Origin: Alphaproteobacteria bacterium
GTDB lineage: Bacteria; Pseudomonadota; Alphaproteobacteria; UBA9219; RFNS01
Length of the DNA: 64,000 nucleotides
Assembly (NCBI GenBank): GCA_016124955.1
Contig: WGMR01000006.1
Span: forward strand, 62,001-126,000
Direction: 5' to 3'
Under the pieces are notes generated by a model. That model did not search any database, was not told the origin of the DNA, and saw nothing but the letters and a program-made list of their open reading frames with translations. Numbering within the stretch: position 1 is the first letter of the stretch; each line of letters opens with the position of its first letter. Below, one piece after another: positions 4,931 to 63,247 of the stretch. Made by a program: the position numbers and the translations under genes.

Positions 4931-5541
4931 TTACCGGCCCGCGCATCGACGCGCACCGGAACCGGCTGCAGAACCGGACGCGCGGGCGCAAGGGAAGCAA
5001 GAAACATGCGCAGCGACGGCATATCGTGCCGCGCGACGCTGACGGCGACCGACAGCATCATCAGCACACCGGAAACCGCAAGCGCGGCCGAGGAAATATA
5101 CAAGGCATAAGCGAGCCAGCAAAATTCGCCCGAAAAACAAAGGGCGCGAAAAGGCAGGGGCCGGTCGCGAAAGAATACGGCCGAACCGATGCCGAGCGCC
5201 GCGCCAAGCGGCAAAAGTTCGTAAGGCGCGTGCACGGACGGCAGCGTAAGCGTGCATACGGCGAAAAGGCAGGCGGCGGTCGTGCCCCGCATATACCGTT
5301 CGGGCAGGGTTGCGGCGCCGAAATTCCTGGCAAGGGCGATCAAAGAAACGAAAGCACCGCTTATCTGGCCCAGCAAGCCGAAATGCGCGATCCAGAACAG
5401 GCAGGGAAAGCACAGAACCCAAAGCGCGACCCGCGGGCGTTTGATCTGATAGCCGCACAGATTGATGACGAGGGCGATAAAGCCGAATATTTCGGCCCAA
5501 ACAAGCGTATTCACGGCGGTAGCCTTAGTTGTTGTCGTCAC
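4921..5541 (-). CDS. YgjV-like inner membrane protein
   Basis: A 206-residue polytopic membrane protein with about six hydrophobic segments, beginning with an EIFGFIALVINLCGYQIK segment and containing FPCLFWIAHFGLLGQISGA. This pattern matches the Imp-YgjV family of bacterial inner membrane proteins, which has no assigned function. A soluble, Arg/Pro-rich tail closes the protein. It is convergent with truA (10 bp overlap of the two ends) and divergent from the pilus secretin gene, so the 146 bp upstream of it must hold promoters for both directions. Confidence 0.7.
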   Translation of the reverse strand: MTTTTKATAVNTLVWAEIFGFIALVINLCGYQIKRPRVALWVLCFPCLFWIAHFGLLGQISGAFVSLIALARNFGAATLPERYMRGTTAACLFAVCTLTLPSVHAPYELLPLGAALGIGSAVFFRDRPLPFRALCFSGEFCWLAYALYISSAALAVSGVLMMLSVAVSVARHDMPSLRMFLASLAPARPVLQPVPVRVDARAGNQP

Positions 5542-5687
5542 CCGAATTTAAGGCCGCTTGCTTAATACATCCGTAATTTACCCGCCAGCATTTTTGTAAA
5601 ACCTATGAACAAGGCATGTTCGTTACGAGGCCGGTTTTGACATTAACCATAATTTTCTGCAGAGTCCCGGCCCTCACCTGCTCATGT

Positions 5688-7490
5688 ATGCTTATGCACA
5701 CCCCGCTCAACAAAATATCTATTATAATCATAGGCTTGGTTCTCGCCGGTAGCCTTGCGGGTTGCGGGGTGCTGATGGGCGAGCCGCCGGCTGACGGCAA
5801 CCTGACCCGCGAAGATTACCGCGCGCTGCGCGAACGGCATGACGATCTGCTGGCCGAAGGGACGCTGCAGGAACCGCCGATCCCGCCGCTGGTTGCCGCG
5901 CCAGCCCCGCAACCGGCCGTAGCCGCAGCCTTGCCCGCCAAGCTTGTAAGCATCACCGTGACCGACCAGGTGGCGTTGCGGGACGTTCTGGTCGATCTCG
6001 CGCGCGAAGCGGGCGCCAATCTTGAGCTTGATCCCCGCATTGAAGGCGGGATCATCTTTTCCGCCAAGGACCAGCCGTTTGACGAGGTGCTGGAGCGCAT
6101 TTGCGACCTTGCGGGGCTTCGTTACCGGGCCGAAGGCAAATATCTGCGCATAGAGCTTGATGAACCTTATATGTTCACCTACCGGCTGGATTACCCGAGC
6201 CTGAGCCGCCGTACCGAAAGCGAAGTTTCGATCGCCACCAACGTATTTGATTCCGATGTCGGCAGCGGCAACAACGGCAACAGCAACGCAAACGGCAACG
6301 GCAATACGGGGAACGACAACAACTCGCTCGCGCGCGTACGTTCGGTAGCCGATGCGGATTTCTGGGGCGAGGTCGAAAAGACGGTCGGCAACATCCTTGC
6401 TTCCACCGGGCGCAGCAAGCCCTTGCTGGCACGCGCAGAAAGCGCCGGCGCGGGCGGTGCGGCAACCAAGGCCGATTTTACGCTAAACCGGCAAGCCGGT
6501 ATCGTTTCCGTGTACGGCACGGGCCGCCAGCACAGGGCGATCAAAGATTACCTGCAGCAGCTCCAGCACGGCGCAAACGCGCAAGTGTTGATCGAGGCGC
6601 GGATCGTCGAGGTCGAGCTTTCGGAAAAATACCGCAGCGGCATCAACTGGCGCACGCTGTTCGGCGGCGCGGTTGATTTCGCCGGGCGCTTCGGCACCGT
6701 CGGCGCGGGCGCGCATTTCATCGCCCCGACCACGGCGGCGGAAAACGCCTTTACCGCATCGCTGAACAACGAGGATATTGCAGGCATTCTGAACCTCGTG
6801 CGCGAATTTGGCACCACGCGCATTCTGTCTTCGCCGCGCCTGACGGTTTTGAACAACCAGACCGCGGTTCTGAAAGTGGCGCGCAACGAGGTTTACTTCA
6901 CAACCTCGGCCCAGTTCCCGACCACGATCAGCACGGGCGGCGTGCCGGTTTCGGGCACGCCGGTTTTCACCAGTACGCCGCGCACCGTGCCTGTGGGGCT
7001 TGTGATGACCGTGCAACCTTCGGTCGATCAGCAGACGCAGCAAATCACCATGACATTGCGCCCGACCATTTCGCGCATCGTCAAGCAGGTGCCCGACCCT
7101 TCGATCGGCCTCAATGCCGCGCAGCAAGGCAACAGCACGCCGGTCGAATCCCTGATCCCCGTTCTGGCGGTGCGGGAGATGGATTCCGTTTTGCGCATGC
7201 GTTCGGGCGAAGTTGCGATTATGGGCGGCCTGATGCAGGACAGCACAGAGAATAATGAATCCGGCATACCGCCGTTCGACGAAGCGCCTGCGCTCGGGCT
7301 GCTCGGTAAATCGAACGACAACACGGGCGCGACCACCGAGCTTGTGATCCTGCTGCGCGCCAGCATCGTGAAGAGCGCGACGCCGGACATGGCCGATGCC
7401 GCGTTATATGACAAGTTCGGGCGCGACCCCCGCCCGCTGCTTCTGCCGGTCGTCGCTACGCCGCCTGCAAGCGAACCCCGCGAGCAGTAA
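5688..7490 (+). CDS. mshL: MshL/PilQ/GspD-type secretin lipoprotein
   Basis: About 600 residues; forms the outer-membrane channel for a type IV pilus or type II secretion system. The start at 5688 (or ATG 5694) gives a lipoprotein signal ending in the lipobox L-A-G-C, which decides against the longer frame. Residues about 86-156 are a secretin/TonB short N-terminal domain (VALRDVLVDLAREAGANLEL), then comes an Asn/Gly-rich linker (about 190-212). A secretin domain follows (about 295-560), with VLIEARIVEVELSE, RILSSPRLTVLNNQTAVLKV, VPVGLVMTVQPSVD and MRSGEVAIMGGLMQDS. This architecture fits MshL of the MSHA pilus best. First gene of the pilus cluster running to 14593. Confidence 0.88.
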   Translation: MLMHTPLNKISIIIIGLVLAGSLAGCGVLMGEPPADGNLTREDYRALRERHDDLLAEGTLQEPPIPPLVAAPAPQPAVAAALPAKLVSITVTDQVALRDVLVDLAREAGANLELDPRIEGGIIFSAKDQPFDEVLERICDLAGLRYRAEGKYLRIELDEPYMFTYRLDYPSLSRRTESEVSIATNVFDSDVGSGNNGNSNANGNGNTGNDNNSLARVRSVADADFWGEVEKTVGNILASTGRSKPLLARAESAGAGGAATKADFTLNRQAGIVSVYGTGRQHRAIKDYLQQLQHGANAQVLIEARIVEVELSEKYRSGINWRTLFGGAVDFAGRFGTVGAGAHFIAPTTAAENAFTASLNNEDIAGILNLVREFGTTRILSSPRLTVLNNQTAVLKVARNEVYFTTSAQFPTTISTGGVPVSGTPVFTSTPRTVPVGLVMTVQPSVDQQTQQITMTLRPTISRIVKQVPDPSIGLNAAQQGNSTPVESLIPVLAVREMDSVLRMRSGEVAIMGGLMQDSTENNESGIPPFDEAPALGLLGKSNDNTGATTELVILLRASIVKSATPDMADAALYDKFGRDPRPLLLPVVATPPASEPREQ

Positions 7491-43084: not shown

Positions 43085-44029
43085 TTATACCGGCAGCAAA
43101 TGCCCCAGCGCCGTCATAATACGATGACGATAGGTATGTTCGGCCACCGCACGCTTGTGCGCCCGCTGGGCCATTTGCTGCGCAAAGCCCGGGTTACCGA
43201 GCAGGTAGCTGGTTTTTTCCGCCATGTCTTCGGGCGAACGGTAAAAGAGAATTTCCTTTTCCGGCTCGAAATATTTTTCGATGCCTTCCAGATATTCGAC
43301 CACCTGCGGAATGCCGTAACCCGCGGCTTCGAACGTGCGCATGTTGGTTCCGGCGCGCACGACGCCGGCATGGATGTTGAACGATACGCTGTGCCTTGCA
43401 TAAATGCCTTCCATCGCATCGTTGGCAACGCCGGGGCGGAATGCAAACGGATGACGCCAGAACACGGGCGCTTTCATAAAATAGTTGCCTACAATTTGCA
43501 CGGGAATATCGTTCTTCAGCAACTGTTCGATCCAGTAATCGCGCTTGGCATCGCGGTTGCCGATAAAGCACACGCCGTGCCGGCGAACGGCCCGTTGTGC
43601 GGGCCGGTGTACCGGCGGATAATGCGCGAAAGGCAGAATGCCGCCGAAGCGATCATGCGGCAACAGCGCAAGCAGGTCTTTTTCATAGCCGGGGTCTGAC
43701 AGGAACACGCGGCCGAAGGCGCCAAGGTCGCCGGGCTGCATGCGCACATCGTCAACGATATAAAGCACGTTGCGCATATCGGGCCGGATTGCACGGAATT
43801 CCTTGCGATAACCGACGAAAAAAACAGCCGCGCAATCCGCCGTATCAATTCTTTGCCGCAAGCTCTGCCACCAGCCTTCCGGATCGCGCTGAAAACGCAA
43901 ATAGTCCGCAAGGCCTTGCGGGCGGGTCGAGACCCATTCCACCTTCCCCGGAAACATATCTTTGAGGGCATGGCAGAAGTAGCGGCCGAGGCCGCCTTTC
44001 CATGGTTTGCTGACGACAAGGATTTTCAT
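43085..44029 (-). CDS. Glycosyltransferase, CgeB/GT1-like
   Basis: A 314-residue protein resembling CgeB-type spore maturation/glycosyltransferase family 1 proteins: N-terminal MKILVVSKPWKGGLGRYFCH, a middle part with CFIGNRDAKRDYWIEQLLKN, and C-terminal FNIHAGVVRAGTNMRTFEAAGYGIPQVVEY, an E-x7-G-x-P donor-binding pattern. No signal peptide or membrane helix. Divergent from the next glycosyltransferase. The sugar transferred is unknown. Confidence 0.75.
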   Translation of the reverse strand: MKILVVSKPWKGGLGRYFCHALKDMFPGKVEWVSTRPQGLADYLRFQRDPEGWWQSLRQRIDTADCAAVFFVGYRKEFRAIRPDMRNVLYIVDDVRMQPGDLGAFGRVFLSDPGYEKDLLALLPHDRFGGILPFAHYPPVHRPAQRAVRRHGVCFIGNRDAKRDYWIEQLLKNDIPVQIVGNYFMKAPVFWRHPFAFRPGVANDAMEGIYARHSVSFNIHAGVVRAGTNMRTFEAAGYGIPQVVEYLEGIEKYFEPEKEILFYRSPEDMAEKTSYLLGNPGFAQQMAQRAHKRAVAEHTYRHRIMTALGHLLPV

Positions 44030-44172
44030 ATGGCATGCCGTGGATCGGGGTGGGCCGGGCTGGCCAGATTTTTTATACCAAAGCCGGGCATTTTAACAGC
44101 CGCTTGCCCGCCCGGGCCGTATCGCCCCATCCCCATGGCCCTTTACCGCATGTTGGGTTAGTGTCGGTTTCC

Positions 44173-45297
44173 ATGAGCGCATCCGATTCCACATCAACCC
44201 GCATCGCCATATTTATCGAAGACCTGAGCGGTGGCGGCGCCGAAAAGGTGACCGTGCTGCTGGCGGGCGACCTTGCCGCGCGCGGCTATGCCACAGACCT
44301 GATCGTGCAGCGCGCGACCGGCCCCTTCGTTGACCAGGTTTCGCCGCGGGTAAATTTTATCGAGATCGGCGGCAAGAACCCGCTCCAGAGCGTTTTATGG
44401 CTTATGCACTATCTGCGCCGCGCCCGCCCCGCCGCCATGATCACGGAAATGGAAAAAGCATCCCTGCTCGGTATCGTGGCCGGGCGCATGGTCGGCTACC
44501 ACAACATTTTTCCCTGCGTGCATATCGATCTCGCGAGCTACGACAAGATCGATCACCAGATGCGCCGCCGGTTCCTCAAGGTGCTCGTGAGCGTCTTTTA
44601 CCGGGCCAGCAAGGGCATTATTGCCTGCGCCGAACGGCCCGCAGCATCGATGCGCGCGCTGCTCGGGCGTGCCGCACCGCCGGTGTCGATGATTCAGAAC
44701 GGCTTCGATCTTGCCGCTTTCCGCGCCGAAGGCGCCGAACCGACCGATCATCGCTGGCTGACGGCCAAAGACAGGCCCGTTTTCGTTGCCTGCGGCAGGC
44801 TGACGCAGCAAAAGGGCTATGATGTGATGCTGCGCGCCTTCGCAAGACTGCGCCGCGAACAGCCCGCGCGCCTTATCATCCTCGGGCAAGGACCGCTGCG
44901 CGAAGAACTTGGACGGCAGGCAAGCAAGCTTGGTATCGGTGACGATGTCGATTTCGCGGGTTTCCTTAAGAACCCGCTCGCGCTTTTCACAAAAGCGGAC
45001 GGTTATCTTATGTCGTCGCGCTCGGAAGGGTTGCCCAGCGTATTGATCATGGCGCTGGCGGCCGGGTGCAAATCAATCAGCACCGATTGCCCTGCCGGCC
45101 CTTCGGAAATCCTTGATGGCGGAAAATTCGGGCGGCTGGTGCCGGTCGATGACGATGTGGCGCTGGCAGCCGCAATGGCCGATCTGCTTGCCGGGCGCAA
45201 CGAGCCCGCGGGCAGCGCACAGGAGCGGGAAGCCCATATGCAGCAATATTCCATTGAAAATATGGTGCGCGATTACATCAAGGTAATCGGCGTCTAG
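44173..45297 (+). CDS. Glycosyltransferase family 4
   Basis: A 374-residue GT-B enzyme: the N-terminal half includes IFIEDLSGGGAEKVTVLLA, and the C-terminal donor domain has FVACGRLTQQKGYDVMLRAF, ARLIILGQGPLREELG and SSRSEGLPSVLIMALAAG (E-x7-E-type motif). A related motif set occurs in WcaL/RfaG-type enzymes adding sugars to surface polysaccharides. Start at ATG 44173; a GTG at 44161 and the open frame to 44035 are less likely. It stands upstream of hemA, with 114 bp between. Confidence 0.88.
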   Translation: MSASDSTSTRIAIFIEDLSGGGAEKVTVLLAGDLAARGYATDLIVQRATGPFVDQVSPRVNFIEIGGKNPLQSVLWLMHYLRRARPAAMITEMEKASLLGIVAGRMVGYHNIFPCVHIDLASYDKIDHQMRRRFLKVLVSVFYRASKGIIACAERPAASMRALLGRAAPPVSMIQNGFDLAAFRAEGAEPTDHRWLTAKDRPVFVACGRLTQQKGYDVMLRAFARLRREQPARLIILGQGPLREELGRQASKLGIGDDVDFAGFLKNPLALFTKADGYLMSSRSEGLPSVLIMALAAGCKSISTDCPAGPSEILDGGKFGRLVPVDDDVALAAAMADLLAGRNEPAGSAQEREAHMQQYSIENMVRDYIKVIGV

Positions 45298-55207: not shown

Positions 55208-55981
55208 TTATGCGCCCTGCTGCATCGCCGCCCGCACCTTGGTAGCGGAAATGGCTTCGAGCGCCGCGCCAAGCTCGATCTTCTCGATCTTGTAGCCGAC
55301 ATCGCGCCCGTAGAGGATGTTGGTGATGTTGGGCAAGCGAATAACGGCAAACTTGCCTTCATGCTCCGTCATCGCGTCACGGATACGCTTTTCAACTTCG
55401 GCAAAACCGAAAGGATTCTTTTCATCGGTTCCCTGCGTATCGCGCACGGCGATGCAAGCCTGCCCGACCCGGGCGATGCCTTCCAGCACCAGCGCCTTGT
55501 GCCCGTCATGGAAAGGCTGGTAGCGGCCGACGAACAGCGCGGTCGGTTTCTGCCAATCGAAGCCCATGCCGGTGAAAAGTTGCGCCGCGATCAGGCGCGC
55601 ATGATGTTCGGCATCCTGCGTCGATACATGGTAATCCACCTTACCCGGTGGCTCGAACAGCTTGGCGGTATCGGCAAAGGGGGTTGGTTGCTTGGTATCG
55701 ACCCAGATGGTGAAGGCATCGCCGAAGGCAGTGCGCGTTTCCGCGGTGGGGCAAACAAAATCGGCCATGCCGTAATGCCCGGCTTCGACCGCGCGATCAC
55801 ACATCCACCCCATGCGCCGCGCCTGTTCGATACGGTCGCCGACCGAAAAACCGAGATCCTTATTGATGTTCTCGCGCACCGCGTCGGCGTTAAAATGCAC
55901 AGCCCGAAGCAGCGGTTTCAGGGCGGCCGCCAGAGTGGTTTTGCCCGCTTTCGGCAGGCCCATAATCAGGATCTTTTTCAT
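55208..55981 (-). CDS. Kinase - nucleotidyltransferase fusion protein
   Basis: A 257-residue protein of two domains. About residues 4-140: a P-loop kinase resembling APS kinase (GLPKAGKTTLAAALKPLL at 8-25; FNADAVRENINKDLGFS; RRMGWMCDRAVEAG), though with Pro-Lys in place of the usual Ser-Gly of the P-loop. About residues 147-257: a nucleotidyltransferase with GRYQPFHDGHKALV (HxGH core, about 152-165) and ISATKVR near 246. Neither the usual adenylyltransferase partner of sulfate activation nor NadR order (kinase after transferase) is matched. Both active sites look intact; the substrate is unknown. Start at ATG 55981. The C-terminal part ends 2 bp after the convergent gene. Confidence 0.8.
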   Translation of the reverse strand: MKKILIMGLPKAGKTTLAAALKPLLRAVHFNADAVRENINKDLGFSVGDRIEQARRMGWMCDRAVEAGHYGMADFVCPTAETRTAFGDAFTIWVDTKQPTPFADTAKLFEPPGKVDYHVSTQDAEHHARLIAAQLFTGMGFDWQKPTALFVGRYQPFHDGHKALVLEGIARVGQACIAVRDTQGTDEKNPFGFAEVEKRIRDAMTEHEGKFAVIRLPNITNILYGRDVGYKIEKIELGAALEAISATKVRAAMQQGA

Positions 55982-61881: not shown

Positions 61882-62298
61882 TTAGCGAAAAACCAGCTTT
61901 TTTGAGGCCGTAAAATTGAACACCAGCCCGGCGGCCGAACCGGGCACGACCGCAAAAACCGGCTGCGCGGCAAAGAACGGGATGAAGGTGACGCATAGCG
62001 CATAGATCGCATAATTGATGCAGGCGCCGACGGCGTTTGCCGCCACGAACTTCGCCCACTGCCGCAATGCGGGATCGGTCGAAGGAATATCGCGGAAGGT
62101 CAGCGCGCGGTTGAGCGCCCAGGTTACGAAGGAAGCCGAGAAGAAGGAAAGTACGCGCCCGAAATAAGGCCCGGCACCCAGCAGTTCGGTCACCACCCAA
62201 AGCGCGGCCATATCGGCGAACATGCCGATCGCACCGCAACCGGTAAATGTAGCGAACTGCCGCAAGGTTTGGTGGCGCAGCAGCTTACCGATCATCAC
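61882..62298 (-). CDS. GtrA-like flippase-family protein
   Basis: A 138-residue protein with four helices: FATFTGCGAIGMFADMAALW, VLSFFSASFVTWALNRALTF, FVAANAVGACINYAIYALCV and AVVPGSAAGLVFNFTASKKLVF. This pattern fits GtrA/DPMS-associated family proteins, which move or assist polyprenol-linked sugars. Its start overlaps the end of the GT2 gene by 14 bp; together they look like a surface-glycan module. Confidence 0.85.
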   Translation of the reverse strand: MMIGKLLRHQTLRQFATFTGCGAIGMFADMAALWVVTELLGAGPYFGRVLSFFSASFVTWALNRALTFRDIPSTDPALRQWAKFVAANAVGACINYAIYALCVTFIPFFAAQPVFAVVPGSAAGLVFNFTASKKLVFR

Positions 62299-63247
62299 GT
62301 GCGCCGGGTGCGGGAACGTTCAGATAACGCATGCGCTTCATTTCCATTCTGCCGCGCGTGACGGTATCGAGGATCATGCCGCAAGCAAGGCTAAGGAAGG
62401 CCATGATCATCAGCCCGGTCGATAAAATCGCCGTCGGCATGCGGGGCACGAGGCCGGTTTCAAGGAATTCAACCACAATCGGCGCCGCAAGCACGACCGA
62501 GATAAAGGCAAATAGCGCCGCCAGCAGGCCGAAGAATATCAGAGGCTTTTCTTCCTTCACCAGCACAATGATGGTCCAGAGGATACGGAACCCGTCGCGG
62601 AAGGTGCTGAGCTTGCTGGCCGAACCGACGGGCCGTTCCTTGTACGGCGTCGGTATTTCTGCGATCGGCATGCGCAATTCAAGCGCATGGACGGTAAATT
62701 CGGTTTCCGTTTCAAAACCGGCCGCGAGCGCGGGAAAGGATTTAACAAAACGGCGCGAAAATATGCGATAGCCCGAAAGCATATCCTTGAAGCGGTTACC
62801 GAAAATCCAGGCGACCATGCCCGTCAGCATCACATTGCCGAAACGGTGGCCGGGGCGATAAGCTTTTTGTCCGCCCGCGGCGCGCGCACCGTTGACCATA
62901 TCGAGCTGCCCTTCGACCAGCGTCTCGACCATGCGCGGCGCCGAGGCCGGGTCATATGTATCGTCGCCATCCACCAGAACATAAATATCGGCTTCGACAT
63001 CGGCGAACATGCGACGCACCACATTGCCCTTGCCGCGCAGGCTTTCCGCCCGCACAACCGCGCCGGCGGCGCGGGCCAGTTCGGCCGTGCGATCGGTCGA
63101 GTTATTGTCATAGACATAAACGGTGGCCGAAGGCAGCGCGCGGCGGAAATCATCCACCACCTTGCCGATGGCGGCTTCTTCGTTATGGCACGGCACCAGA
63201 ACGGCGATGCGGAGGTGGGAAGGAAGGCGGACGGCGGGGTCTGTCAT
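62285..63247 (-). CDS. GT2 polyprenol-phosphate glycosyltransferase
   Basis: A 320-residue GT2 enzyme of the dolichol-phosphate mannosyltransferase type. RIAVLVPCHNEEAAIGKVV (about residues 9-27), DGDDTYDP (about 94-101) and LSGYRIFSRRFVKSFP; two C-terminal membrane helices (about 235-260 and 270-295). It likely transfers a sugar to undecaprenyl phosphate. Situated between GtrA and a membrane protein, 12 bp after the latter. Confidence 0.9.
   Translation of the reverse strand: MTDPAVRLPSHLRIAVLVPCHNEEAAIGKVVDDFRRALPSATVYVYDNNSTDRTAELARAAGAVVRAESLRGKGNVVRRMFADVEADIYVLVDGDDTYDPASAPRMVETLVEGQLDMVNGARAAGGQKAYRPGHRFGNVMLTGMVAWIFGNRFKDMLSGYRIFSRRFVKSFPALAAGFETETEFTVHALELRMPIAEIPTPYKERPVGSASKLSTFRDGFRILWTIIVLVKEEKPLIFFGLLAALFAFISVVLAAPIVVEFLETGLVPRMPTAILSTGLMIMAFLSLACGMILDTVTRGRMEMKRMRYLNVPAPGARDDR

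Follow-up and report, generated by a model that had tools for sequence, protein, structure and literature searches.

A probable compact PAPS synthetase pairs an APS-kinase-type domain with a short NMNAT-like nucleotidyltransferase

We conclude that a two-domain protein encoded in a 64,000-nucleotide stretch of alphaproteobacterial DNA (the window) is a compact bifunctional PAPS synthetase, a reading to which we give a probability of roughly 0.7. In this protein, which we call T, an APS-kinase-type domain is fused to a short nucleotidyltransferase (NTase). The C-terminal NTase would transfer AMP from ATP onto sulfate, yielding APS and pyrophosphate. The N-terminal domain would then use a second ATP to phosphorylate the 3'-OH of APS, and the resulting PAPS, the activated sulfate on which cellular sulfation draws, would serve sulfotransferases. 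In many phages and most SAR11 bacteria, the two halves are encoded by touching genes. The basis for this reading consists of the domains, their conserved motifs, folds and operon partnerships, and the lack of Sat and CysDN in nearly all carriers; the partner genes of the NTase are the main evidence. From these observations we infer both reactions and their direction, sulfate as the acceptor and the use of PAPS. It also seems fairly likely that sulfate adenylyltransferases evolved independently a third time, next to Sat and CysDN, and that the short NTase represents this kind. It would have an NMNAT-like origin, is widespread among phages and nearly universal in SAR11, and would allow these bacteria to make PAPS from sulfate. 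The proposed reaction and one half of T are of kinds already known, and the half that activates sulfate would add a family not previously linked to its reaction. In open-licence papers, we found nothing on the T protein or on an NMNAT-like ATP sulfurylase.

The gene and the parts of its product map to the window as follows.

55208..55981, minus strand: T gene, a single open frame with an ATG start, encoding the two-domain APS-kinase-like/NTase protein of 257 residues plus a stop codon
55562..55981, minus strand: APS-kinase-like P-loop domain, residues 1-140, from PF01583 and solved-fold matches
55937..55960, minus strand: P-loop GLPKAGKT, residues 8-15, read from the sequence, with G8, L9, P10, G13 and K14 invariant
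55814..55891, minus strand: presumed APS-site stretch NADAVRENINKDLGFSVGDRIEQARR, residues 31-56, from the CysC/CysNC alignment, with D33, R36, F45 and R56 invariant
55211..55546, minus strand: short HxGH NTase domain, residues 146-257, from profile matches, alignment and a fold model of the NTase alone
55499..55528, minus strand: nucleotide-binding motif GRYQPFHDGH, residues 152-161, with G, R, Q, P, H, G and H invariant
55292..55312, minus strand: family-specific YGRDVGY following PNITNI, residues 224-230, a putative sulfate/acceptor site
55232..55252, minus strand: ISATKVR, residues 244-250, with I, S, A and R invariant

Translation, Pfam and PHROG 10255 bear out the first-pass annotation of this gene as an APS-kinase-like domain joined to an HxGH NTase. 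The whole protein matches PHROG 10255, labeled "kinase", at 3.7e-50, with residues 1-254 aligned to positions 1-229 of 230. The annotation had also called both motifs complete; the motifs are indeed present, but the NTase is without its acceptor half and the kinase without the canonical lid. Because the catalytic motifs are invariant across 31-33 diverse relatives, with no loss in any of them, we conclude that the T gene is real and that selection acts on it. An AlphaFold2 model of full-length T, built with 31 relatives, has a mean pLDDT of 90.1, and prediction of both halves gave an APS-kinase fold and a PPAT/NMNAT-like fold. In the window the gene stands alone, with a solute-binding protein gene convergent to it and a DUF1761 gene divergent from it. 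Several glycosyltransferases lie in the window, as the annotation had remarked (for example at 43088-44029, 44035-45294 and 62288-63247), but none adjoins T. A GC-rich hairpin with a thymine run (56051-56032, minus strand) sits on the T strand about 50 nt 5' of the start codon and may either terminate a transcript that comes from upstream or be part of a leader.

The N-terminal half scores 49.8 bits against the Pfam APS_kinase family PF01583 over residues 4-85, above the gathering cut-off of 21.1. Against the apsK equivalog TIGR00455 it reaches 48.8 bits, well below the curated cut-off of 138.7. Among solved folds, APS kinases are the closest to the T model (Z 19.4, rmsd 1.7, 139 aligned residues), and gluconate kinase is the next family at Z 16.0. 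In the alignment, D33, R36, F45, R50, R56, P78 and R83 match CysC/CysNC positions with equal spacing, and we take these to be the positions that line the APS site in APS kinase structures. T thus carries D.VR, the F of LGFS, DR and SP..R, and residues 31-56 keep the spacing of the canonical DGDNVR...LGFS..DR.EN.RR, with Gln53 in place of the Asn that follows DR. The FTGIDxPYExP lid is absent from the same alignment, and a shortened F.DT...F.PP stands instead. Since the domain lacks this lid and falls far under the equivalog cut-off, we regard it as a divergent member of the APS kinases. The kinases found beside related NTases run from canonical CysC (L175, L177) through an intermediate form (L182) to the T type.

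To see which genes accompany the NTase, we used 80 viral loci retrieved by an alignment-based NTase search; a search with the single NTase of contig L109, whose patterns are not the conserved ones, gave no relatives. As a control, 80 loci were retrieved with a phage NMNAT-Nudix protein. An APS-kinase-type ORF is present in 78 of the 80 NTase loci, fused in 10, on the same strand within 60 nt in 54 and slightly farther away in 14. The remaining two loci include L176, which is cut by a contig end. In the control set, only four of 80 loci have such an ORF, and all four belong to the short NTase family. Canonical CysC proteins also occur as partners: in L175 (PF01583, 226.7 bits) the kinase lies upstream of the NTase, behind a 68-residue gene resembling DUF2061 proteins, and in L177 (147.6 bits) it lies downstream. 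L109, a contig binned with a genome of the window's own family (G001), carries a bona fide CysC (135.1 bits), the NTase and a sulfotransferase within 2.7 kb.

Sulfotransferases are the other recurrent partner. Of the 80 viral T loci, 46 have one encoded on the same strand, compared with 1/80 control loci. Sulfotransferase genes touch or overlap T in six loci (L050, L060, L067, L068, L073 and L099), and L234 has a sulfotransferase-kinase-NTase operon. Ten viral loci and L108 have a gene for a DUF2061 protein next to T, and PF09834 was confirmed for L030. In Stenotrophomonas and Xanthomonas phages (L101 and L104), MazG-like and cysteine dioxygenase genes lie upstream of T, and in L101 a small gene annotated as NADAR precedes it. 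The T family is common in phages.

Its distribution in cellular genomes was examined against the known routes to APS. The window genome, which is 99% complete, has no Sat and no PF01507 protein, and therefore neither CysD nor CysH; its best CysN match reaches 91 bits against a cut-off of 336. Two other genomes, G005 and G027, likewise have T and lack Sat, PF01507 and CysN, and the window T groups with their T proteins in the tree (support 98/94). PF01507 is missing from G000, G001, G005 and G027, and present in G007 and G024 of the same order, which have CysD and CysN and no T. Across all carriers, Sat was found in 3 of 27 genomes and CysN exceeded its cut-off in one. Within the window's order, PF13469 sulfotransferases occur in only four genomes (G001, G005, G024 and G027), and all four are among the six with T, an NTase plus CysC, or CysDNC (Fisher 3.7e-4). 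When 398 genomes of the phylum were searched, G000 and G005 alone had the full NTase domain; the other matches were partial, covering the first part of the domain inside larger frames. The family is therefore rare in cellular Pseudomonadota outside SAR11.

We did not find a PAPS consumer in the window genome, which has no PF13469, PF00685 or PF01507 protein, and a scan of the 64-kb window found no sulfotransferase. The surface modification suggested by the first-pass annotation could well be sulfation in phages and SAR11; for the window organism it is conjectural. In G027, a 488-residue protein (L107, 8672-10138) starting HLFVGTHKTGTTS is encoded divergently from T and looks sulfotransferase-like by eye. 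It matches no Pfam family and is possibly an unrecognised PAPS user.

The family is most widespread in SAR11 (Pelagibacterales), where T is present in 152 of 197 genomes (E <= 1e-24), for the most part split into two adjacent genes. CysD occurs in 10 of the 197, and none of these is among the 152. This exclusivity has a hypergeometric probability of 1.7e-7, a value that ignores phylogeny and treats as independent genomes that are not. Sat is found in 10 SAR11 genomes and coexists with T in several. PF13469 proteins are not clearly tied to T in this group, as they also occur in genomes without it, and we do not count them as support. According to published work, SAR11 lacks a complete cysDNCHIJ pathway, and its strains have cysC and cysQ with no sat and mostly no cysDN (PMC5069961, Table 3), a pattern that fits a compact PAPS synthetase. 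Taken together, the APS-kinase partner, the sulfotransferase neighbors, the general lack of Sat and CysDN and the absence of overlap with CysD in SAR11 make a missing sulfate adenylyltransferase the best explanation of the NTase. The first-pass annotation had proposed an unknown small substrate for T. The kinase partner, the sulfotransferases and the exclusivity with CysDNC in SAR11 point to sulfate as the most likely one.

The SAR11 loci also bring out the strongest alternative, in which only the kinase acts in sulfur metabolism. APS would then come from AprBA or a host ATP sulfurylase, and the NTase would run in reverse like Sat or regulate APS. AprBA turns sulfite and AMP into APS (PMC5069961), and several SAR11 pairs share a gene run with a membrane protein and with what look by eye like aprB and aprA genes. 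In some genomes the genes beside the pair read, again by eye, as aprM, aprB and aprA, which would make sulfite a further possible source of APS there. We nevertheless consider this explanation unlikely, because the NTase is invariantly kept, is coupled to the kinase in phage loci that have no apr genes and is present in the window genome as well.

Two kinds of gene neighborhood recur around the SAR11 pair. In L114, L115, L116, L125, L127 and L128, TENA/PQQC-like and membrane protein genes follow the kinase and NTase, in most cases with the aprB- and aprA-like genes after them, and an MFS transporter and a Cys/Met-metabolism PLP enzyme lie upstream; such loci may form a sulfite-to-APS-to-PAPS island. 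In L120-L124 and L126, the pair is flanked by a Rieske oxygenase-like gene, with an enoyl-CoA-hydratase-like gene where the contig continues, and GcvT-like genes and an MTHFR-like gene are seen nearby by eye.

The NTase itself raises the question of an NAD-type enzyme, in which it would adenylylate NMN or another nucleotide, with the kinase phosphorylating either a riboside, as in NadR, or the ribose of the product. Its Pfam score against CTP_transf_like is 21 bits, exactly the cut-off. Its best sequence and profile matches are to NMNATs: nicotinamide-nucleotide adenylyltransferase models match better (6.8e-9), though under their curated cut-offs (35.4 versus 397 bits and 30.5 versus 127 bits), the profile resemblance reaches 1.7e-9, and hhalign aligns the domain to the phage NMNAT-Nudix protein with 98.6% probability over 72 columns. 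A NADAR gene adjoining T in a Casjensviridae phage also suits the NAD-type explanation. However, the match covers the ATP-binding half only and stops after those 72 columns, where the acceptor-binding part would start. The domain is about 110 residues long, with the HxGH ATP-binding half of an NMNAT and no NMN-binding half. The partner is an APS kinase rather than a riboside kinase, sulfotransferases are its neighbors, and none of the 75 control loci without the short-NTase motif, which are true NMNAT-Nudix loci, has an APS-kinase-type ORF. For these reasons we find an NAD-type enzyme highly improbable.

In place of the acceptor part, the short NTase has P-N/D-I..(I/V).YGRxVGY followed by ISAT..R. 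The YGRDVGY motif sits just beyond the end of the NMNAT profile match, its Y, G, R, V and G are invariant in 37 NTases, and on this pattern of conservation we propose it, with R226, as the putative sulfate/acceptor site. Because the matches in a fold search with the full model were dominated by the kinase half, we predicted and searched the NTase separately. The resulting model (mean pLDDT 90.5) resembles PPAT (Z 11.7) and NMNAT (Z 10.4-10.5), a predicted fold that suggests ATP as the donor. ATP sulfurylase is absent among the matches listed in this search, an absence that carries no weight. Direct homology to ATP sulfurylase was considered and rejected: the domain has no Pfam match to PF01747, and hhalign to Sat gives 9%. 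One T relative reaches 17.3 bits to PF01747, under the cut-off. We propose that the NTase arose within the NMNAT branch of HxGH adenylyltransferases, or is a near relative of that branch, and would have lost the large acceptor-binding part. In L181, a member of the family (4980-5741) has an added C-terminal domain of about 120 residues, and no APS kinase is found in that 10-kb locus.

APS is not the only nucleotide-activated compound that CysC-like kinases can use. By this analogy, and with glycosyltransferases near T in some phages, T might activate another small acid or amide (a phosphoramidate, phosphonate or phospho-compound) as an NDP or NMP derivative for surface modification, but we see little chance of this given the recurrent sulfotransferases and APS kinases, the retained APS-site residues and the exclusivity with CysDNC in SAR11. 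Likewise, the CDP- or phosphoramidate-type chemistry raised by the first-pass annotation finds no support in the genomic context seen here, and no capsule phosphoramidate locus like that of the CDP-phosphoramidate kinase Cj1415 was recognised among the T neighbors inspected. Its broader proposal, a two-step activation enzyme whose kinase acts on a nucleotide-activated compound, agrees well with the evidence and would place the NTase step first and the kinase step second.

If T is a compact PAPS synthetase, SAR11, the most abundant ocean bacteria and described as being without sulfate activation, could make PAPS from sulfate. Their APS kinase has so far had no known APS source except AprBA, and a short NTase beside it would fill this gap. 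Viral genes labeled "cysC" or "kinase" may likewise be full sulfate-to-PAPS units feeding the adjoining sulfotransferase. To our knowledge, a sulfate adenylyltransferase of about 110 residues would rank among the smallest nucleotidyltransferases, and it would be a useful tool for PAPS production. As the SAR11 pair consists of two small soluble proteins, the question of sulfate activation is directly testable.

Of the known systems, the animal PAPS synthetases (PAPSS1/2) share with T the proposed pair of reactions and an order with the APS kinase first, and the T kinase half aligns to their APS kinase domain. In T the second domain, for which sulfate adenylylation is proposed, is of another family; it is an NMNAT-like domain of about 110 residues, in contrast to their far larger ATP sulfurylase domain, and the T halves are often separate genes. 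Sat (PF01747) would share the reaction and belongs to the same HxGH superfamily, and its GRDHAG and the GRDVGY of T, compared by eye, both contain GRD; however, there is no significant homology, and the T NTase is about one third of its size. The sulfate-activating half also comes from another family than CysDN. CysC and CysNC (PF01583, TIGR00455) have the P-loop, DxVR, LGFS, DR and P..R positions and the fold in common with the T kinase, which differs in its missing lid and its 48.8 bits against the 138.7 of the apsK equivalog. With NadM and NMNAT-Nudix proteins, the NTase shares GRxQPxHxGH, NPF and the C-terminal ISAT..R (S/GTxIR) positions, but it is without their acceptor-binding half, has the family-specific YGRDVGY and is partnered by an APS kinase rather than by Nudix or NAMPT. 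NadR has its NMNAT domain first and its riboside kinase second, whereas T has the reverse order and a kinase of the APS-kinase type, and it is not a NadR. PHROG 10255, which matches over the full length, is the same family as T, and it gives no function besides kinase.
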